Assembly (NCBI GenBank): GCA_002699105.1
Contig: PABJ01000015.1
Span: forward strand, 1 to 34,203
DNA length: 34,203 bases
Origin: Ectothiorhodospiraceae bacterium
Lineage (GTDB): Bacteria; Bacteroidota; Ignavibacteria; SZUA-365; GCA-2699105
Reading direction: 5' to 3'
In this document: piece after piece, positions 2 to 32,172 of the stretch
How the letters are laid out: each line of letters begins with the position of its first letter
Numbering within the stretch: position 1 is the stretch's first letter
Program-made: the position numbers and the translations under genes
The notes under the pieces: generated by a model
Databases searched by the model: none
Seen by the model: the letters and a program-made list of their open reading frames with translations, nothing else
Told to the model about the DNA's origin: nothing

Positions 2-1312
2 GTCCGTGCGCCGCGGGCCTGCCTCGTACCCGATGGAACAGGTCAGCTCGAACAGGCGACGGACGACTGCAAGCGGTTCGGCTTTGCAGGTATCGAACTG
101 CGCAGCGATTTTATCCCGGAGCCGCCGAAGATCGATGTGCCGTTCATTGCATCGCTCAGGACGGAGGACGCTGAGTTTTTCTCCCGGATGGAAGGCGCGG
201 CGGCATTCGACTGCGACGTGAGGTTTGTCGGGAGCATCAGCCTCCCTGAATACGGCAGGCCGTTCATCCTTTCATCGCATCCTCACGCTACGGGCGAGCA
301 AAACGTTGCAGAGTTCGAGCGTGCCTTCGATGTAATAAATGAGCGCTCCCCGTCATACGCATCGCATATAGAATTCAAGTACGCGCCAGCAGTGCATTCC
401 TGGGACGAACTGCGCACGGCATTCAGCATCGCGGAGACATTAACGAGCCGGTTTCCATCCTGCCCAGTGACCTTCATTCCGCAGGGCAAACGCTGGTGGT
501 GGGTGCGGGCATTTCTCATCGGAAAGAATGCACGGCAGTATCTCACGTACCCGGGTACAGCGCTGGAGGGCAGCACTCCAATCCTTGGCGATATGCTGCC
601 GCATATGGCTGGCCCTTTGCCCACGAAGTGGTTTGCACTCATCGGCAAGCCGGTCGATGGCAGCGTCGGCGACATTTTTCACAGGACTCAGAGCTTACGC
701 TACGACGAGGGCAGTGTGGGATACCTCAAGATTGAAGTCGCAAAGGAAGACGCCGATACTGCGCTCGCATTCCTGCACGAGCTCGGCTTCGCGGGCCTAT
801 CGGTTACCGCGCCGTTGAAGCAGGCCGTGGCCGAATCGCACCACGTGAACAACGAACAGCAATTACCCGCGGGAAATACACTTCTCCGCACCGAGCGAGG
901 CTGGACACTCTACGATACGGACGCGGCGGGCATGAAAGCAGCGCTTGCGTTGTTGGAACAACATGGCTTCCCAAAAGGCAGGGCTGCGATTTACGGACAG
1001 GGCGGAGTGAGTCCTGCCGTGCGCCGCGCAATCGAAGAGAGCGGCTGGCAGATCGACGCGGCGGTGCGCGCAAGGGAAGGCTGGCATGTGTGCGGCTGCG
1101 CATCGACGGACCTCATCGTGAATGCGAGCGGGACCAACGAAGATTCCCGCGATGGTGCGCCCCCTGCAAAAGCCTGGATCGATCTGCACTATAGAAACCT
1201 GATACCCCCGCCTGCCGGTGTGAGCTTCTATATGAGCGGTATGCCGTTCTTCGAAGCGCAGGCAAACGAACAGCGGCGTCTCTGGGGATTGAACACCGAA
1301 CAAACGGAATAA
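2..1312 (+). CDS. aroD/aroE: Bifunctional 3-dehydroquinate dehydratase (type I) / shikimate dehydrogenase, 5'-truncated by window
   Basis: Dehydrates 3-dehydroquinate to 3-dehydroshikimate, then reduces it to shikimate with NADPH, in the cytoplasm. The frame is open from base 2 and reads GFAGIELRSDFIPEPP upstream of the GTG at 137, so that GTG is internal and the true start lies before the window; 436 codons are visible. The dehydratase half shows the GIELR strand, a His-containing SSHPHATGEQ segment where the catalytic His sits, and FKYAP with the expected Schiff-base Lys. The dehydrogenase half starts near base 620 (KWFALIGKP) and shows GLSVTAPLK (catalytic Lys), NTLLRTERGWTLYDTDAAG (catalytic Asp), a Gly-rich YGQGGVSPAV loop and DLIVNASG. 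The usual S-x-S substrate motif reads GSVGDIFH, so one Ser is missing. The stop lies 2 nt before aroC. Assignment is firm; normal activity of the AroE half is inferred. Confidence 0.92.
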   Translation, partial: VRAPRACLVPDGTGQLEQATDDCKRFGFAGIELRSDFIPEPPKIDVPFIASLRTEDAEFFSRMEGAAAFDCDVRFVGSISLPEYGRPFILSSHPHATGEQNVAEFERAFDVINERSPSYASHIEFKYAPAVHSWDELRTAFSIAETLTSRFPSCPVTFIPQGKRWWWVRAFLIGKNARQYLTYPGTALEGSTPILGDMLPHMAGPLPTKWFALIGKPVDGSVGDIFHRTQSLRYDEGSVGYLKIEVAKEDADTALAFLHELGFAGLSVTAPLKQAVAESHHVNNEQQLPAGNTLLRTERGWTLYDTDAAGMKAALALLEQHGFPKGRAAIYGQGGVSPAVRRAIEESGWQIDAAVRAREGWHVCGCASTDLIVNASGTNEDSRDGAPPAKAWIDLHYRNLIPPPAGVSFYMSGMPFFEAQANEQRRLWGLNTEQTE

Positions 1313-1314
1313 TC

Positions 1315-2328
1315 ATGCGCGGAAACAGTTACGGAAACAACCTGGTACTCACAAGCTTCGGCGAATCGCACGGCGTAGCGCTTGGCGCAGTCGTCGACGG
1401 CGTCCCTGCACAGATCGAGATTAGCGAGGATGATTTCCGGCACGATCTCGCGAGACGGAGACCGGGACAGTCCGGCGTCACCACATCACGAAATGAAGCC
1501 GACGAGCCGGAAATACTGAGCGGGATCTTTGAAGGACAAACGCTCGGGACGCCGATTGCCGTCCTTATCCGGAACAAGGATCACAAAAGCGACGAGTACG
1601 ATAAGGAGTACAAGCGGCCGGGGCATGCAGAAACTGCGTGGGAACACAAGTACGGCATCCGCGACTACCGCGGAGGTGGACGGGCTTCCGGCAGGGAGAC
1701 CATTGCCCGCGTTATCGGCGGGACGATTGCAAAGAAAATCCTGCCGAAGGACTTGCAGATTCACGGCTTTACCCGCAAGATCTGCGGGATCGAGGCAGAG
1801 AATATTCCCCAGGAACTCAGCACAGAAACCATTGATGCGAATTCCGTCAGGTGTCCCGATTCTGCCGCTGCAAAGAAGATGGAAGAGCTCATCCTTGAAG
1901 CGAAGGAGAGCGGCGATTCGCTCGGCGGCATCGCAGAGCTGCGCATAACAGGCGTCCCCGCCGGACTGGGCGAGCCGACCTTCCGCAAGGCGAAATCCGA
2001 GCTTGCCGCGGCGATGATGTCGGTCGGTGCAGTATCGACTGTATCGCTCGGCCTGCGGGAGGAGGAGTTCGAACTGCCGGGCTCAGTCTTTCACGTCCCC
2101 CTCAAGGCCGGCATCGCGATGCGCTCGCACGGCATACAAGGCGGCATCACCAACGGCGAGCCGATCACTTTGTATGTCTTTATCAAGCCACCGAGCACCA
2201 CAGGGTCGATGGCAACCAAGGGCAGGCACGACCCCTGCATCCTTCCGCGCGTGATTCCGGTCCTTGAGGCGATGGCAGCCTTCACTCTTGCCGATCTGTT
2301 TCTCAGCGCCAGGATGGATCGGCTATGA
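1315..2328 (+). CDS. aroC: Chorismate synthase
   Basis: Converts 5-enolpyruvylshikimate-3-phosphate to chorismate using reduced FMN; last step of the shikimate pathway. The N-terminus MRGNSYGNNLVLTSFGESHG is the family signature, followed by RRPGQSGVTTSRNEADEPEI, then GTPIAVLIRNKD, the RPGHAETAWEHKYGIRDYRG segment and GGGRASGRETIARV, and near the C-terminus GITNGEPI and ATKGRHDPC. The length of 337 residues is close to the usual 350-360 for the family. It begins 2 nt after the aroD/aroE stop and its TGA overlaps the ATG of the next gene (ATGA), so the three aro genes are almost certainly one transcript with translational coupling. Confidence 0.97.
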   Translation: MRGNSYGNNLVLTSFGESHGVALGAVVDGVPAQIEISEDDFRHDLARRRPGQSGVTTSRNEADEPEILSGIFEGQTLGTPIAVLIRNKDHKSDEYDKEYKRPGHAETAWEHKYGIRDYRGGGRASGRETIARVIGGTIAKKILPKDLQIHGFTRKICGIEAENIPQELSTETIDANSVRCPDSAAAKKMEELILEAKESGDSLGGIAELRITGVPAGLGEPTFRKAKSELAAAMMSVGAVSTVSLGLREEEFELPGSVFHVPLKAGIAMRSHGIQGGITNGEPITLYVFIKPPSTTGSMATKGRHDPCILPRVIPVLEAMAAFTLADLFLSARMDRL

Positions 2329-4550
2329 AAACCAGCGAGCTGGTCCACATAGCGAAACTCTCTGAACTTGCGCTGGATGAGACATGCATCGCAATTGCCG
2401 ATGAGAACCTCCCGCAGAAAATCCGGGATGCCTTCCCACTAGCAATCACCGTAGAAGCAGGCGAGCGGCTGAAATCGCTTGCCTCCATTGAGCGGCTCGC
2501 TGAACAAATTCTGGCGCGGCGCGCAACAAAGCCGCTGACCCTTGTTGCCGTGGGCGGGGGCAGCGTAGGGGATGCCGTCGGATTTCTGGCCAGTACGCTC
2601 TGGCGCGGCGTGGGTCTTTGGCATATACCGACAACATTGCTCGCAATGGTGGATTCCGCACACGGAGGAAAGACGGGTGTGAATCTCGCGAACGCGAAGA
2701 ATCAGCTTGGCACCTTCTATCCTGCGGATAAAGTGTTCATCGTCGCGGAGCTGCTTGAAACGCTTCCCTACCGCCAACGACGAGAGGGAATGGCAGAGGT
2801 ATTCAAGGTTGCCCTGCTGAATCCTGATCTCGACATCGATGCATTCGGCGTGATGGAGCGGATGGTGTACGCGCCCTTCGCGGACGTGCAGCACGAGATG
2901 ATGGTGGTGATCCAGGTGGCGATCCTCACCAAGCTCAAAATTGTGAAGGAGGACCCATTCGAGGAGTCCGGTACGCGCACGCTGCTGAATCTCGGGCATA
3001 CAATCGGTCATGCAATAGAGCGAGTGTACGGGATCAATCACGGCGAGGCGGTGGCGTGGGGCTTGGCGTCGATGCTGCATGTATCGGAAAAGCACGGCCT
3101 GCCGTCTGCGTTGAAAGAAGCCCTCCTCGCCCGGCTCCATCCATTGCTGGTACCCCTGCGCCCCGGAATCGATGCCGAGATGTTGTTCGATACCCTTCGC
3201 AAGGATAAAAAGCGCCGCGGCGGGAAGCTGCGCTCCGTACTGCTACGCTCTATCGGCAATGCGTATGTTACCGACACGGTGAGCGAAGACGAGTGGCTGG
3301 ATGCATTCGCCGAATCGGTGAAGTGGTTTTCAGATACCCGCGTCCGTGTGCAGTGCAAAACCCCGAGGGCAGCGTCGATTACAGTAGAATCCAGCAAGTC
3401 CGAGCTGAACCGGGCGCTTATCATCGCAGCGCTGCGGAAAGGCATCACCCGGATTGAAGGCAAAAGCTCAGCGCTCGATGTGCAGGAAATGGTTACGGCA
3501 TTGGATGCGCTGGGTGCGCCGCTCATCCCCACCACAGCAGGCTGGGAAACAATCGGTGTGGATGCATCGAACAGCGATACGCGCAGCGTCCATTGCGGCG
3601 AGGGAGGAACGACGCTTCGTTTCCTCATTGCGTATGCCGCATCACAGCCCGGCAAAACCCGCCTGAACGCCGTTCCGGCTTTGCTACGCCGGCCGCATGG
3701 CCCGCTCATCGAAGCACTGCGAAATGCAGGCGCACGAATAGAGCAAACCGAAGACGGCTTCACCGTCCAAGGATGGGAGAACTTCCCGCTTTCGTTTACC
3801 GTGGACGGTTCTGATTCATCGCAATACGTTTCGGCATTATCGCTGCTGGCAGCAGGCGCTCCGCACCCCTTCACCATCCGGATCGAGGGCAGCGCGGTAA
3901 GCAAGCCGTATCTGGAAATGACCCTTGCTCTCCTGGAACGCGCCGGGGTGGAAGTGCTGCACGAAGGCGCCGTCATCGCACTGAATCCCACACCAAAGTT
4001 AGAGCGCGAATGCGAACTCACGATTGCTCCGGATGCCAGCTCCCTAGCGGTATGGCGGGTGACAGCGTACCTCGGACATCCAGGCAATGCGGCGATGCCG
4101 AAAGACACCCTCCAACCCGATAGCCGCATTGATGAATACCTTGGCATTTTAAAGAATGAGACTGCGCCCGCAATCGATTTGCGCAACGCACCGGATCTGC
4201 TTCCAGTGCTCAGTATCGCAGCGCTCAGGACGGGGAAAACAGTACGGTTTACCGGAATCGGCCACCTGCGGCACAAGGAATCTAACCGCATCGAAGGCTT
4301 ACAGCAATCTCTGCAGGCTGTCGGCATACGCGCCGAAGCAGAAGAGCATGCGTTCGTTATTCCGGCGCAGTCGCCGGGCAAACTACGCGGGGCATTCGAT
4401 ACGCGCAGTGATCATAGGCTTGTGATGGCAGGTGCACTGCTGGCCTTGCTCTTCGGCCAGATCGAACTGACTGCGCCCTGGTCCGTCCAGAAATCCTACC
4501 CCAGCTTCTGGGACGACGCCCGCCGCGCCGGCTGGACACTGGAAGTGTAG
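2325..4550 (+). CDS. aroB/aroA: Fused 3-dehydroquinate synthase / EPSP synthase
   Basis: One 741-residue polypeptide with two shikimate enzymes. Residues ~1-335 are DHQ synthase: GGGSVGDAVGF (from ~77), IPTTLLAMVDSAHGGKTGVN (~101-120), and candidate zinc ligands E158 (REGMAE), H225 (NLGHTIGHAIE) and H239 (INHGEAV). The N-terminal strand region is about 20 residues shorter than in E. coli AroB. Residues ~345-741 are EPSP synthase: SKSELNRAL with K358, GEGGTTLRFL, RRPHGPLIEALRNAGA, DGSDSSQYVSAL, SKPYLEMTL, PDASS, the catalytic-Asp segment DLRNAPDLLPVLSIAAL, LRHKESNRIEGL, SDHRLVMAGALL and VQKSYPSFWDD. All core motifs of both enzymes are present with no frameshift at the junction near 3334. It overlaps aroC by 4 nt. 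The B-A order is that of the N-terminal half of eukaryotic AROM. Confidence 0.96.
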   Translation: MKTSELVHIAKLSELALDETCIAIADENLPQKIRDAFPLAITVEAGERLKSLASIERLAEQILARRATKPLTLVAVGGGSVGDAVGFLASTLWRGVGLWHIPTTLLAMVDSAHGGKTGVNLANAKNQLGTFYPADKVFIVAELLETLPYRQRREGMAEVFKVALLNPDLDIDAFGVMERMVYAPFADVQHEMMVVIQVAILTKLKIVKEDPFEESGTRTLLNLGHTIGHAIERVYGINHGEAVAWGLASMLHVSEKHGLPSALKEALLARLHPLLVPLRPGIDAEMLFDTLRKDKKRRGGKLRSVLLRSIGNAYVTDTVSEDEWLDAFAESVKWFSDTRVRVQCKTPRAASITVESSKSELNRALIIAALRKGITRIEGKSSALDVQEMVTALDALGAPLIPTTAGWETIGVDASNSDTRSVHCGEGGTTLRFLIAYAASQPGKTRLNAVPALLRRPHGPLIEALRNAGARIEQTEDGFTVQGWENFPLSFTVDGSDSSQYVSALSLLAAGAPHPFTIRIEGSAVSKPYLEMTLALLERAGVEVLHEGAVIALNPTPKLERECELTIAPDASSLAVWRVTAYLGHPGNAAMPKDTLQPDSRIDEYLGILKNETAPAIDLRNAPDLLPVLSIAALRTGKTVRFTGIGHLRHKESNRIEGLQQSLQAVGIRAEAEEHAFVIPAQSPGKLRGAFDTRSDHRLVMAGALLALLFGQIELTAPWSVQKSYPSFWDDARRAGWTLEV

Positions 4551-16719: not shown

Positions 16720-16771
16720 GCGCATGTAACTCGAATACTTGATATATATTCTCTGCCACGAGGATAACTTT
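16720..16771 (+). promoter_or_regulatory. Conserved leader of first tandem T9SS protein
   Basis: Nearly identical to 18238-18289: CTCGAATACTTGATATATAT, then CTCTGCCACGAGGATAAC, then the ATG. It includes a GAGG ribosome-binding site at 16760-16763. Conservation right up to the start in both copies suggests a shared 5' leader or promoter and shared regulation. Confidence 0.55.
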
Positions 16772-18091
16772 ATGAAGACAGCGATGCATATTTTCGTCGT
16801 GGTTGTCGTATGCTTGTCATTGATGTCAGCACAGGGATTCGCACAGAATGAACACGTCCAGCAGGACGGTCCGGTTCGTTTTATCACGAGACCTACGACC
16901 AAAAACCTCGACACGAGAGAAGTTTCCATCCTCAACACCGAGCGCACGGCGAGACCCAGGTATTGTAACAGCTACATCTATTATGACCGGCATGCATCCA
17001 CATCGGAGTACATCGATAGCGTCCCATCAAAAGTGTTTGCGGTGCGGGCTTCCATGCCGCACGGTTGGATGCAGATTCCTGCCCCACAGTGCACTGTTTG
17101 GACGGTAGACGTCGATTTTTACTGGCTTCCGGATTCCGTGAATGACCGCGATACAATTAATGTCTTCATACGCGAAGCCAGCCCTCCATACGATGAAATT
17201 CATATTTCCAAGTTCCTGACGACTCTCGGCAACAACGTCGGAAATATCGAGATTGATCCTCCGATTCAGCCGTACAAGGTGCCGATTGTCAACACGTCGA
17301 CGGACTACTTGATCGGTGTCTATATTACGGGGGATACGGGAAACACCATCAAATGGCGGTTCCGAACGCCGGCTGCATACGATAACCCACCGAGATCGTA
17401 CGTTTTCACGACACCGACAACACCCGTACCGGTCGGTACGGCGCTCTCATTGCCGGACTGGAGCTTTTATCCGGTCGTGTGCTGCGATTTCTGGAGACCG
17501 GTGGAACTTTCTCTTTTCCATGGCTCCTATCTCGACGGTTCGGTGTTCCTCAACTGGCAGACCGAATCCGAGATCAACAATTACGGTTTCGAGATATTGC
17601 GCTCTGGCGAACGCAACGGCGACTATTACAAGGTCGGCGAGAAGGCAGGCAAAGGTACCACACATGAGCGGTCGTGGTACGATTTCGTCGATAACAGCGC
17701 CAAGGGTAACAGTCCAACCGGCTCGTACTTCTACAAGCTGCGTCAGATTGACTTCGACGGCGAGCACAAAGAATACGGCCCGATCCGTGTCGCAATGGGC
17801 ATACCGGGTGAAGGCGGCATCCATCTTCACAGCGTGTATCCAAACCCGGTCCCTCTGGACGGGTACAGCGTTATCGGCTATGAACTGCCGGAAGAGACGG
17901 GTGTGAGTATACGTCTCGTGAACGCGCTCGGCCAGGAGGTAGCGACGCTGTTCGAGGGCAATAAGCCCGCAGGCTACCATGAGGCGCTCTGGCAGGTGAA
18001 TGCACATCCTGGCCTCATCAATGGCACGTATTTCATCCTGATGAAGACCGAATCCCGGTCTATGATGAAGAAGATCAGCGTGATTCGGTAA
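16772..18091 (+). CDS. T9SS type-A sorting domain protein, tandem copy 1
   Basis: 439 residues from the ATG at 16772, chosen over an upstream TTG because it follows GAGG and gives the signal peptide MKTAMHIFVVVVVCLSLMS, cleaved near FAQ. The N-terminal ~250 residues are an uncharacterised secreted domain with several Cys (PRYCNSY, PQCTVWTVDVDFYW, VVCCDFW). Residues ~255-350 form a fibronectin-like region common before sorting domains (VELSLFHGSYLDGSVFLNWQ, NNYGFEILRS, YKLRQIDFDGEH). The last ~80 residues are the type-A sorting domain (VYPNPVPLDGYSVIGYELP, NALGQEVATL, GYHEALWQV, GTYFILM, KKISVIR). By eye roughly 80% identical to the next gene. It is probably surface-displayed; function unknown. 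Confidence 0.9.
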   Translation: MKTAMHIFVVVVVCLSLMSAQGFAQNEHVQQDGPVRFITRPTTKNLDTREVSILNTERTARPRYCNSYIYYDRHASTSEYIDSVPSKVFAVRASMPHGWMQIPAPQCTVWTVDVDFYWLPDSVNDRDTINVFIREASPPYDEIHISKFLTTLGNNVGNIEIDPPIQPYKVPIVNTSTDYLIGVYITGDTGNTIKWRFRTPAAYDNPPRSYVFTTPTTPVPVGTALSLPDWSFYPVVCCDFWRPVELSLFHGSYLDGSVFLNWQTESEINNYGFEILRSGERNGDYYKVGEKAGKGTTHERSWYDFVDNSAKGNSPTGSYFYKLRQIDFDGEHKEYGPIRVAMGIPGEGGIHLHSVYPNPVPLDGYSVIGYELPEETGVSIRLVNALGQEVATLFEGNKPAGYHEALWQVNAHPGLINGTYFILMKTESRSMMKKISVIR

Positions 18092-18237: not shown

Positions 18238-18289
18238 GCGCACGTAGCTCGAATACTTGATATATATACTCTGCCACGAGGATAACGTT
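18238..18289 (+). promoter_or_regulatory. Conserved leader of tandem copy 2
   Basis: Second copy of the leader described at 16720-16771, with only a few substitutions over ~52 nt, including the GAGG ribosome-binding site. It continues into an identical ATGAAGACAGCGATGCAT. Confidence 0.55.
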
Positions 18290-19612
18290 ATGAAGACAGC
18301 GATGCATGTTGTCAGCACGATTGTGGTGTGCTTGGCGATGATGTCGATACAGGGTTTCGCACAGAACGAACATGTCCAGCAGGACGGCCCGGTTCGTTTT
18401 ATCACGAGACCCACAACGAAAGATCTCGATACGAAGGAGATCCCCATCATCAACACCGAACGCTGGGCAAGACCGTTTAATTGTACCAGCCGCATTTATT
18501 ACGATCAGTCTGCATCGACGACGGAATACACCGATAGCGTCCCGTCGAAAGTGTTTGCAGTGCGTGCTTCCATGCCGTCGGGTTCGGTGCAGCATCCTGT
18601 CTCGAGATGTACAGTCTGGACGGTTGACGTCGATTTTTACTGGCTGCCGGATTCCGCGAACGACCGCGATACGATCAATGTCTTTATTCGCCAGGCTAAC
18701 TCTCCGTACAACGAGATTCATATCTCCAAGTTCCTGACGACGCTCGGCAACAACGTCGGCAACATCGAGATCGATCCTCCCATTCTCCCGTACACTGTGC
18801 CGATCATCGCGAACACATCGCAGGACTACTACATTGGTATTTATATCACGGGTGATACAGGCAACACCATCAAATGGCGGTTCCGAACTCCCGCTGCATA
18901 CAGCAGTCCGCCAAGGTCATACGTTTTCACCTCGCGGACATCGCCCGTACCTGTGGGTACGGCCCTCTCGTTGCCGGATTGGAAGTTTTACCCAACAGTG
19001 TGCTGCGACTTCGGCGTACCGGTGGAGCTCTCTCTTTTCCATGGCTCATATCTCGATGGTGCAGTGTTCCTCAACTGGCAGACTGAGTCCGAGATCAATA
19101 ATTACGGATTCGAGATATTACGTTCGGGTGAACGCAACGGCGAGTACTACAAGGTCGGAGAGAAGGCAGGCAAGGGAACCACACATGAACGGTCGTGGTA
19201 CGATTTCGTCGATAACAGCGCCAAGGGGAACAGCCCGACCGGCTCGTACTTCTACAAGCTGCGCCAGATTGACTTCGACGGCGAACACAAGGAATACGGT
19301 CCGATACGTGTCGCATTGGGCGCACCGGGTGAAGGTGGATTTCATCTCCACAGCGCATATCCAAACCCGGTCTCACAGGACGGTTACAGCGTCATCGGAT
19401 ATGAACTGCCGGAAGAATCGGATGTAAGCATCCGCGTCGTGAACGCGCTTGGCCAGGAAGTAGCAACGCTGTTGGAAGGCGAAAAGCCTGCGGGCTACCA
19501 TGAAGCGCTCTGGCAGGTGAACAGCCAATCGGGCTTGCTGCACGGCACCTACTTCATCATGATGCAGGCAGGTACGCACTCCGCAGTCAAGAAGATCAGC
19601 GTCCTAAAGTAA
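18290..19612 (+). CDS. T9SS type-A sorting domain protein, tandem copy 2
   Basis: 440 residues from the ATG at 18290; signal peptide MKTAMHVVSTIVVCLAMMS, cleaved near FAQ. Same domain order as copy 1: unknown N-terminal secreted domain, fibronectin-like region (VELSLFHGSYLDGAVFLNWQ) and C-terminal sorting domain (AYPNPVSQDGYSVIGYELP, NALGQEVATLLEG, GTYFIMM, KKISVLK). Differences from copy 1 concentrate in the N-terminal domain (for example RARPRYCNSYIYYDRH against RWARPFNCTSRIYYDQ, first letters aside), while the stretch around VFLNWQTESEINNYGFEIL is identical. This pattern suggests diversification of the exposed domain with a constrained export module, but selection was not computed. Confidence 0.9.
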   Translation: MKTAMHVVSTIVVCLAMMSIQGFAQNEHVQQDGPVRFITRPTTKDLDTKEIPIINTERWARPFNCTSRIYYDQSASTTEYTDSVPSKVFAVRASMPSGSVQHPVSRCTVWTVDVDFYWLPDSANDRDTINVFIRQANSPYNEIHISKFLTTLGNNVGNIEIDPPILPYTVPIIANTSQDYYIGIYITGDTGNTIKWRFRTPAAYSSPPRSYVFTSRTSPVPVGTALSLPDWKFYPTVCCDFGVPVELSLFHGSYLDGAVFLNWQTESEINNYGFEILRSGERNGEYYKVGEKAGKGTTHERSWYDFVDNSAKGNSPTGSYFYKLRQIDFDGEHKEYGPIRVALGAPGEGGFHLHSAYPNPVSQDGYSVIGYELPEESDVSIRVVNALGQEVATLLEGEKPAGYHEALWQVNSQSGLLHGTYFIMMQAGTHSAVKKISVLK

Positions 19613-29970: not shown

Positions 29971-30326
29971 AACGGTAACCTCACGCAAGTTATGATGGAT
30001 AAATAGCGTATTCAGTTCCGTCAGGTGAACGTTGCAGCCGTACAGCTCCTCCGCACATGCGCGCCTTCAGTTGCGCGTCTGCGGATACTGTTCCCTCCAT
30101 AACCCGAGCGGTATAATTGTTAGACGTCCGAAGCGCCGCGTTTGTGTCACGGACTGTTATGTCCTTTTCACTACGCGGTTGCAATCCCTTGCTTATATCG
30201 GTCGAATGACATCGTGGTATACGCAGAGCGCAACGAGAAAGTTACAGGGCGTGATGAATCTGACATGCGCGAAGTGATCTGTGAGAAAAGACGAATGATG
30301 ATTCTTAACCCCAAACGTGTCTCTAG
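29971..30326. other. Intergenic region upstream of RAYT-like element
   Basis: About 355 nt with no supported gene. A 64-codon TTG-initiated frame on the minus strand (30184-29990) ends just upstream of the lipoprotein but lacks a ribosome-binding site or recognisable motif. The only structure seen is an imperfect GCGCG-rich inverted repeat around 30051-30083. Confidence 0.45.
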
Positions 30327-30492
30327 AGCCCCGTAGGCGTCTTCGTGCCTATGGTGGGCGGCATGATTATAGCAGCAGCGCCATTCCCACACTTCCGTTT
30401 GATGCCGATGCAACTGTCCCTGGGACGGCAGCATCGGCTGGCGGGGTTTTTAGGTTGTATCATTTCTATAAACATATCGCCCCTACGGGGCT
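30327..30492 (+). repeat. REPIN-like palindromic repeat, copy A1
   Basis: Matches A2 and A3 over ~145 nt. Its outer right end CTATAAACATATCGCCCCTA is the near reverse complement of the left end. The inner stem GCCGATGC ... GCATCGGC is present. The left outer stem is longer than in A2: CCGTAGGCGTCTTCGTGCCTA, about 20 nt more than CCCCGTAGGGG, and itself forms TAGGC/GCCTA. Confidence 0.85.
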
Positions 30493-30501
30493 CGAAGAAA
30501 G

Positions 30502-30972
30502 ATGGCCAACACCTATACACAGCTTTATGTCCAAATAGTATTTGCCGTACAGGGAAGGCAGAGTCTCATCCCACAGCGACACAAGGAGGAACTCCATAAA
30601 TACATTGCCGGGATCGTCGACAATAAGGGTCATAAGCTTCTGGCCGTGAACGGTATGCCGGACCATTGTCATGTGTTTATCGGAATAAATCCTCTCTCAT
30701 CCGTTTCATCAATCGCTGGGGAGGTGAAGAGCAATTCAGCCAGATTCATAAACAAGCAGGGGTGGAGTCATGGCAGGTTCTCCTGGCAGTCCGGCTACGG
30801 TGCGTTTTCGTATCATCATTCGCAGCTCACACGAATAATTCAGTACATAAGGAATCAGGAACAGCACCATAGGAGAAGTACATTCAAGGAGGAGTACGAG
30901 GCGTTGTTGGAGGAATTCAATGTCAAGTACAATAGTAAATATGTGTTTGATTATCCGCATGACATTGATTGA
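30502..30972 (+). CDS. IS200/IS605-like HUH transposase (RAYT type)
   Basis: 156 residues, full length for the Y1 transposase family. It cuts and rejoins single-stranded DNA through a transient 5'-phosphotyrosine. GMPDHCHVFIGI carries the HUH pair (H55 and H57), and IIQYIRNQEQHHRRSTFKEE carries the catalytic Tyr115 with the trailing Q-x-x-HH and E-Y characteristic of REP-associated members. The N-terminal TQLYVQIVFAVQGRQSLI is the family's first strand. No TnpB or IscB partner gene is adjacent. It is intact, starts 9 nt after repeat A1 (weak GAAGAAAG as ribosome-binding site) and lies between two repeat copies, which are its probable substrates. Confidence 0.92.
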   Translation: MANTYTQLYVQIVFAVQGRQSLIPQRHKEELHKYIAGIVDNKGHKLLAVNGMPDHCHVFIGINPLSSVSSIAGEVKSNSARFINKQGWSHGRFSWQSGYGAFSYHHSQLTRIIQYIRNQEQHHRRSTFKEEYEALLEEFNVKYNSKYVFDYPHDID

Positions 30973-31010
30973 CTCGCAATACTGCGAGCGTACCTATCAC
31001 CGGTCGGTAC
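30973..31010 (+). repeat. Paired short hairpins after the transposase stop
   Basis: CTCGCA (30973-30978) with TGCGAG (30983-30988), perfect 6-bp stem and ATAC loop, starting right at the stop codon. It is followed by GTACC ... GGTAC (about 30990-31010). No T-run, so these are not typical terminators. Confidence 0.6.
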
Positions 31011-31016
31011 AAAATT

Positions 31017-31161
31017 AGCCCCGTAGGGGCGGCATGATTATAGTAGCGCCACCCGCCACACATCCATTTGATGCCGATGCAACCGTCCCTGATACGGCAG
31101 CATCGGCTAGCGGGGTTTTTAGGTTGTATCATTTCTATAAACATATCGCCCCTACGGGGCT
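31017..31161 (+). repeat. REPIN-like palindromic repeat, copy A2 (most symmetrical ends)
   Basis: 145 nt. Left end AGCCCCGTAGGGGCGGCATG then ATTATAG; right end CTATAAACATATCGCCCCTA then CGGGGCT. Left and reverse-complemented right differ at four of 27 positions. Each end also contains the small palindrome CCCCGTAGGGG. The centre has GCCGATGC (31073-31080) pairing with GCATCGGC (31100-31107), with inner arms partly decayed relative to A3. Confidence 0.88.
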
Positions 31162-31270
31162 CGAAGAGGAAGACAGCGCTCGGGATAGCTTCGTTTACAG
31201 GTCACGCCGCTGTGCCTTGCGTCTCTTTGAACTGGTCGGTACATTCTTAGAAATCAAAAGGTTAGAAAGA

Positions 31271-31912
31271 ATGCCAATACTCCACAGGCTATATGTGTCG
31301 ATTATTGCCATGTACATGGCAGCGGCGTTATCAGTGTTTCCTTTATCGTTGCACGCGCAAATCCCACAGCAATACAACACAGGGGTAACGCTCGATCTCC
31401 CGCAGGACGCAGAGCCAACAACCATCCATATCTTATCGATTACTGGGGAGCGGTTGGATGGCGAGCTGGTGCATGCGAGCTATTCGGGCCATATGCTGTT
31501 ATATAATTCTACCGATAGTCCAACTGCTCCTGTGGATATATATGTCATCCCAATCCAGGGTGTGGATTCGGTGAGTTTCAGAGGGAACAGCTATGCCTGG
31601 GAGAGCGCGGCCATAGCCGCACCGGTATCTGTGCTGATTGGGACCTTGTTGCATCAAGCATCCATAGATGTAAATGACAAGCCTGAACCATCCATTGAGT
31701 ATGGTCTTGCTGCTGCTCTATTTGTGACACCACTCACTGCGCTCATTGGGGCATTTATCCACGATGACGGTCCCGGCAAGGTTATCCATACTAAGAGAGG
31801 ATATGCGGAAGCTCTGGATCACCTGCAGGATTACGACCTCTACGATGGCGACGATCCGGTGTTGGTTGAACTGATTCGGCTCATAGAAGAGGCGGAAGAG
31901 AATGATGAGTGA
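31271..31912 (+). CDS. Secreted or membrane protein of unknown function
   Basis: 213 residues from the ATG at 31271. The open frame continues upstream through repeat A2, but that part is repeat-derived and lacks a ribosome-binding site. The signal peptide runs from MPILHRLYVSII to SLHA, cleaved before QIPQQYN. The mature part has a small beta segment (GERLDGELVHASYSGHMLLY, YVIPIQGVDSVSFRG), two hydrophobic stretches (around 111-127 and 145-164) and an acidic C-terminus ending LIRLIEEAEENDE. Order and spacing of these elements resemble the lipoprotein at 6812-7426. No catalytic motif is seen. Isolated between repeats A2 and A3. Confidence 0.65.
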   Translation: MPILHRLYVSIIAMYMAAALSVFPLSLHAQIPQQYNTGVTLDLPQDAEPTTIHILSITGERLDGELVHASYSGHMLLYNSTDSPTAPVDIYVIPIQGVDSVSFRGNSYAWESAAIAAPVSVLIGTLLHQASIDVNDKPEPSIEYGLAAALFVTPLTALIGAFIHDDGPGKVIHTKRGYAEALDHLQDYDLYDGDDPVLVELIRLIEEAEENDE

Positions 31913-32004
31913 TGAAATATGAGTGCTGAATGATGAGAACCGCAGGCTCATGAATCCCGTAGGGATAAAATGTCGATAGGAACAATGTCCCGAAAACCAT
32001 CCAG

Positions 32005-32172
32005 AGCCCCAGCGGGGCGGCATGATTATAGCAGCGCCATTCCCACACATCCGTTTGATGCCGATGCAACCGTCCCTGGGACGGCAGCATCGGCTAGTGG
32101 GGTTTTTAGGTTGTATCATTTCTATAAACGGGACGCCCCCGGTTCAAGCCCAGGGCCAGGCCCTACGGGGCT
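32005..32172 (+). repeat. REPIN-like palindromic repeat, copy A3 (right end disrupted)
   Basis: Left end AGCCCCAGCGGGGCGGCATG. The centre is the best-preserved hairpin: GCCGATGC (32060-32067), AA, CCGTCC (32070-32075), CTG, GGACGG (32079-32084), CA, GCATCGGC (32087-32094). After CTATAAAC, about 31 nt of unrelated C/G-rich sequence (32130-32160) precede the terminal CCCTACGGGGCT. A further partial end CCTACGGGGCTTGAAG follows at 32181-32196. Confidence 0.85.

Follow-up and report, generated by a model that had tools for sequence, protein, structure and literature searches.

The question raised by this locus is what kind of system a small Y1/HUH transposase gene forms with the palindromic repeats around it. 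The gene lies in a window of 34,203 nucleotides (the whole stretch of DNA that was analysed), which is contig C16 of a host assembly of 3.22 Mb in 208 contigs, 74% complete. An earlier note, made from the letters alone, had described an intact RAYT-like transposase between the first two of three REPIN-like nested palindromes. Both the gene and the three repeats were recovered, and the features are the following (no strand is assigned to the repeats).

30326 to 30493: A1, REPIN-like repeat with about 18 nt interrupting its left hairpin
30404 to 30411 and 30431 to 30438: inner stem of A1
30466 to 30470 (CTATA tag) and 30479 to 30491 (hairpin): right end of A1
30502 to 30972, plus strand: Y1/HUH transposase, assigned to the TnpAY1 subclass 1.2 type from PF01797, NCBIfam and an alignment of 32 sequences; 156 aa and a stop codon
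31016 to 31162: A2, intact REPIN-like repeat, DNA fold z = -6.9
31018 to 31030 (hairpin), 8 nt, 31039 to 31043 (TATAG): left end of A2
31073 to 31080 and 31100 to 31107: inner stem of A2
31135 to 31139 (CTATA), 8 nt, 31148 to 31160 (hairpin): right end of A2
31954 to 32018, plus strand: canonical twin-hairpin module, from sequence, its type counted across the genome
31954 to 31966: first hairpin of the module, ATCCCGTAGGGAT, then 8 nt and a GATAG tag at 31975 to 31979
32006 to 32018: second hairpin of the module, foot-to-foot distance 52 nt, overlapping the left hairpin of A3
32005 to 32172: A3, REPIN-like repeat, right hairpin interrupted by about 21 nt
32006 to 32018 (hairpin) and 32027 to 32031 (TATAG): left end of A3, intact
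32060 to 32067 and 32087 to 32094: inner stem of A3, with CTATA at 32122 to 32126

The transposase ORF begins 8 nt past A1 and stops about 44 nt short of A2, with A3 about 0.84 kb beyond A2, in line with the spacings first described. Likewise, the nested central stem GCCGATGC...GCATCGGC is common to A1, A2 and A3. A1 and A2 have a common core of 112 nt at 95% identity, which A3 matches at 82%. Inverted 27-nt ends had been attributed to every repeat; they are intact in A2 only (89% complementary), and since A1 is interrupted in its left hairpin and A3 in its right, A2 alone fits that description fully. The folding energy of A2 is -38.7 kcal/mol, against -20.05 ± 2.69 kcal/mol for dinucleotide shuffles (z = -6.9, none of 200 shuffles as low), and a chance origin of this folding is excluded. 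The gene lies between two complete REPINs that are themselves turned opposite to the common arrangement; with the repeats reversed and A1 and A3 interrupted, the local unit may be partly decayed. The hairpin type of the twin module at 31954 to 32018 has four occurrences in the genome and none in the control. A mechanically called ORF at 31034 to 31912 begins within A2, its true start being likely near 31270, with the signal-peptide-like MPILHRLYVSIIAMYMAAALS.

The window protein matches PF01797 (Y1_Tnp, E = 1.4e-25) and, with 71.9 bits, passes the cut-off of 55 of the NCBIfam IS200 model. Its score against REP_Tyr_transpos is 29.9 bits, below the cut-off of 80. RAYTs bear the signature NP(L/V)(R/K)xG beside their catalytic Tyr (PMC2817692; Y---NP in PMC6006769), and this motif is absent from the window protein, which reads YIRNQEQHHRRS. 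On these two grounds a canonical RAYT identity was rejected, and the label given in the earlier note holds only in part; the protein has instead the Y---Q--HH of subclass 1.2. The residues concerned are H55-C56-H57, W95-Q96 and Y115-I-R-N-Q119-E-Q-H122-H123, with Q119, H122 and H123 invariant in the alignment of 32 homologues. Y[IVL]..Q..HH is present in 104 of 109 homologues, the window transposase reading YIRNQEQHH. As defined by Quentin et al. 2018 (PMC6006769), subclass 1.2 has Y---Q--HH, about 148 aa, a C-terminal extension, a low copy number and the HUH motif DH[IV]H, and occurs mainly in Cyanobacteria and Bacteroidetes. The window enzyme agrees in Y---Q--HH, W-Q, a length of about 150 aa, the C-terminal extension, low copy number and occurrence in Bacteroidota. 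However, its HUH motif is DHCH, and in homologues DH is followed by I, V, T, A, C, G, L or M (some have NH), so that, unlike the published subclass, some members here read DHTH, DHCH or DHAH. Judged from sequence, the window enzyme is a TnpAY1 of subclass 1.2 and, by the defining motif, not a RAYT.

The predicted fold of the transposase (pLDDT 85.6) gave ISDra2 and IS608 TnpA as its best Foldseek matches (E 6e-8 to 9e-6), followed by E. coli RayT (4er8, E 1.8e-5). In a phylogenetic tree (its very long RayT branch makes the rooting unreliable) the IS200/IS605 references formed a clade of their own (SH-aLRT 100) and the window protein was placed among repeat-bearing homologues.

The core fold and the NCBIfam IS200 match are what would be expected of an ordinary IS200/IS605 element, in which the hairpins would be subterminal ends and the gene would move as a normal insertion sequence; the bracketing of the gene by hairpins and the presence or absence of the cassette between species (below) agree with this. 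The count in the host assembly does not. Exactly two Y1 transposases are encoded there, 51% identical to each other and the second with one internal stop, whereas the exact hairpin AGCCCCNNNGGGGC has 24 copies over 15 contigs; the gene is thus far outnumbered by gene-less repeats, and a multicopy IS200 was rejected. Moreover, each end has two hairpins with a 51-nt period, the repeats are inverted between the ends, and the reference elements fall in their separate clade. We therefore consider an ordinary insertion sequence unlikely. Relatives that carry the gene have 1-6 copies.

The repeats are not confined to the window either, as copies were also found on contigs C41, C23, C70, C78, C149, C63, C84 and C22. 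At least five intact inverted pairs of about 145-170 nt are present in the host genome, with A1 and A2 nearly identical, and the central hairpin of such pairs may differ in sequence (e.g. on C63). One intact gene against many repeats is the outcome that the earlier note had asked a genome-wide count to look for; with the repeats dispersed and paired in inverted order, it is the REPIN-like logic originally proposed, and that part of the proposal stands. Around the second Y1 copy (contig C170, 16065-16952), the flanking twin-hairpin modules have the usual orientation, and an identical module of about 70 nt lies some 0.8 kb away as a direct repeat. Inside the hairpin-tag linker of several repeats (contigs C23, C70 and C22) a second small palindrome, TCCGCCGTGGCGGA, is inserted, which suggests that a further palindromic family nests in this one.

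The flanks of 90 homologous loci from several phyla (≥45% identity) were compared with 298 control windows. Of the 90 loci, 73 have a tagged hairpin no more than 300 nt away, as against 22 control windows; tagged hairpins on both flanks (41 loci) and their gene-facing inverted order (38 loci) were seen in none of the controls. The pattern is common to homologue flanks from Bacteroidota, Ignavibacteriota, Poribacteria, Verrucomicrobiota and Acidobacteriota. No tagged REP was found within 300 nt in 17 of the 90 close homologues and in 11 of 14 distant ones. These distant homologues (<45% identity) mostly keep Y..Q..HH, and the scarcity of tagged hairpins among them (3/14) means that the association with repeats may be confined to part of subclass 1.2.

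The repeat unit consists of a 5-7 bp stem with a 3-nt loop (GTA being commonest), exactly 8 nt, and the tag T(A/G)TAG. Its consensus reads A-[GCTCC GTA GGAGC]-GAMATGTTT(A/G)TAGAA, with no signal beyond. Upstream of the gene the loop is GTA, downstream of it TAC. TATAG stands exactly 8 nt off hairpin feet 51 times near the gene, compared with 0.74 expected from far hairpins. Taken from the other side, 141 of 220 near-gene tags of the form T(T/C)T(A/G)TAG have a perfect 5-bp stem, 128 of these at exactly 8 nt, against 11/218 for far tags in the same test. Covariation supports the stem, with 107 paired cases versus 13.5 (maximum 25) when arms were swapped, and 17 distinct stems.

It might be argued that a role in transcription termination or mRNA stabilisation is what preserves such palindromes and that their nearness to the transposase is incidental, as they frequently stand just past stop codons and, in the A repeats, GGGGTTTTT follows the inner stem. 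The density of tagged hairpins in non-ORF DNA, however, is 4.27 per kb near the gene and 0.22 elsewhere on the same contigs, a 19-fold difference. The repeats also occur upstream of the gene, a tag at a fixed 8 nt is without known role in termination, and no known RNA family in Rfam matched the region; this explanation is very improbable.

In many cassettes each end has an outer tagged hairpin and then an untagged hairpin nearer the gene. The spacing of these twins is 48-54 nt (about 51 nt) in 60 of 64 ends, despite a variable spacer sequence, and the innermost hairpin lies at a median of 16 nt past the stop codon. The two ends carry the same tag type in 33 of 35 loci (shuffled mean 16.2, maximum 25) and the same stem in 18 of 35 (shuffled 4.8, maximum 12). 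This matching suggests that one enzyme reads both ends, although genome-specific repeat families, rather than recognition, could be part of the cause.

The twin ends bear on a further explanation, namely that an unrelated palindromic family serves as a landing site for the transposase. The precedent is ISPpu9, which lands in REPs in Pseudomonas (PMC8450116), and REP pairs and arrays do occur without the gene, while in the window two complete REPINs enclose it. Against this, stems vary between loci and match within a locus, with the tag type so regularly shared by both ends, the innermost hairpin stays close to the stop codon (median 16 nt), and the spacing is fixed. In Flavobacterium relatives (L097, L098 and L107) the transposase adjoins the same hemB-like gene (named by sequence reading), which suggests long-term vertical retention at one site and is unlike repeated landing. 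The landing-site explanation is in our judgement quite unlikely.

Dispersal was followed among relatives. A strict REP pattern gave 76 matches in 61 relatives, compared with 3 for the reversed control, and 15 to 28 matches in the richest genomes of the phylum sample; copy numbers are thus in the tens, not hundreds, which counts against reading the locus as a REP system. Genome G306 has gene-less units made of hairpin, tag, spacer and hairpin, a linker, and their mirror image, that is, the four hairpins of a cassette without its gene. The best case came from genus g114, where one and the same pair of genes encloses the transposase and its twin modules in G306 and G336, but just a single twin module in G275. 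The cassette is thus polymorphic (present or absent) between species; G275 may owe its state to a deletion between direct repeats, gain and loss being indistinguishable. These three genomes offered no clean empty site with an exact junction. Likewise, a comparison of 400 kb each from G029 and G056 gave no clean empty site, because identity is about 78%, and only differences in unit number at a common array; genus g77 showed array differences only. No convincing class of TATAG/CTATA excision scars was seen among the loci examined.

Taken together, the locus is probably REPtron-like, with a single-stranded DNA HUH transposase of subclass 1.2 and its own hairpin repeats, copies of which also lie elsewhere, free of the gene, as REPIN-like non-autonomous units. 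The repeats are most likely non-autonomous single-stranded DNA elements mobilised by this enzyme, as far as mobility can be read from sequence. In single-stranded DNA, such as the lagging-strand template, the enzyme would bind the hairpin and might cut at or near the tag through Tyr115 and the metal site H55-C56-H57; rejoining of the ends would then move or multiply REP units and pairs. By analogy with the guide and cleavage logic of IS200/IS605 ends and RAYT REPs (PMC8266576), the offset tag would be closer to the cleavage site of an IS200/IS605 end than to the guide sequence of a RAYT REP.

The system so described shares features with both relatives. With RAYT/TnpAREP (class 2; E. coli, Pseudomonas, Stenotrophomonas) it has in common a low-copy HUH transposase, dispersed inverted palindrome pairs and a GTAG-like tag. 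However, the window protein is without NP(L/V)(R/K)xG, the twin hairpins have a 51-nt period, and repeat copies number tens rather than hundreds. The tag stands 8 nt off a short hairpin and, on the strand reading GTAG/ATAG, 3′ of that hairpin, whereas in RAYT REPs it stands 0-2 nt 5′ of the stem; the repeat is therefore distinct from known REPs, as the earlier note held, and differs by more than the larger size proposed there. With IS200/IS605 elements (IS608, ISDra2) it has in common the TnpA fold, the catalytic residues and hairpins near the ends, and the fixed-distance tag could correspond to the cleavage site. Unlike these elements, it has no tnpB adjoining the window gene, a low copy number, inverted doubled hairpins and many gene-less units. 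Subclass 1.2 might even be a separate branch of REP systems, kin to IS200/IS605 and not to RAYTs, whose ends are twin hairpins at a fixed spacing of about 51 nt with an offset TATAG/TGTAG cleavage tag, a possibility that we put forward tentatively. Were it true, REP-type systems would have arisen more than once, and the group would stand, as an intermediate, between insertion sequences and REP transposases that have been domesticated.

Quentin et al. 2018 (PMC6006769) listed subclass 1.2 without REPs, as neither an insertion sequence nor REP-associated; in contrast, most close members studied here are flanked by the tagged hairpin repeat. As their REP descriptor asked for a stem of 7 bp or more with GT[AG]G at a distance of 0-2 nt, repeats of the form hairpin, 8 nt and tag could not be found with it. 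Our searches of the openly searchable literature (which leaves aside subscription papers and ISfinder) turned up neither REPs nor biochemistry for subclass 1.2. The system is indeed a little-described one. By that literature, the repeat architecture (hairpin, 8 nt, T(A/G)TAG, twin ends) is new in form. The published classification leaves subclass 1.2 without a substrate; a candidate can now be proposed at single-nucleotide geometry and is thereby testable with oligonucleotides. Furthermore, hairpin-N8-T(A/G)TAG provides a search pattern for a class of repeats missed by standard REP descriptors in Bacteroidota, Ignavibacteria, Poribacteria and Verrucomicrobiota. The system is also relevant to the way in which insertion sequences became domesticated single-strand endonucleases, and to whether they did so more than once.

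Elsewhere in the window, and named by sequence reading, shikimate genes are apparently fused at 137-4550: the ORF at 137-1312 resembles AroD-AroE and is followed by AroC, and the ORF at 2325-4550 (741 aa) looks like an AroB-AroA fusion. Two tandem paralogous ORFs (16739-18091 and 18257-19612; 450 and 451 aa), which start and end almost identically, have the look of secreted proteins with a C-terminal sorting domain.
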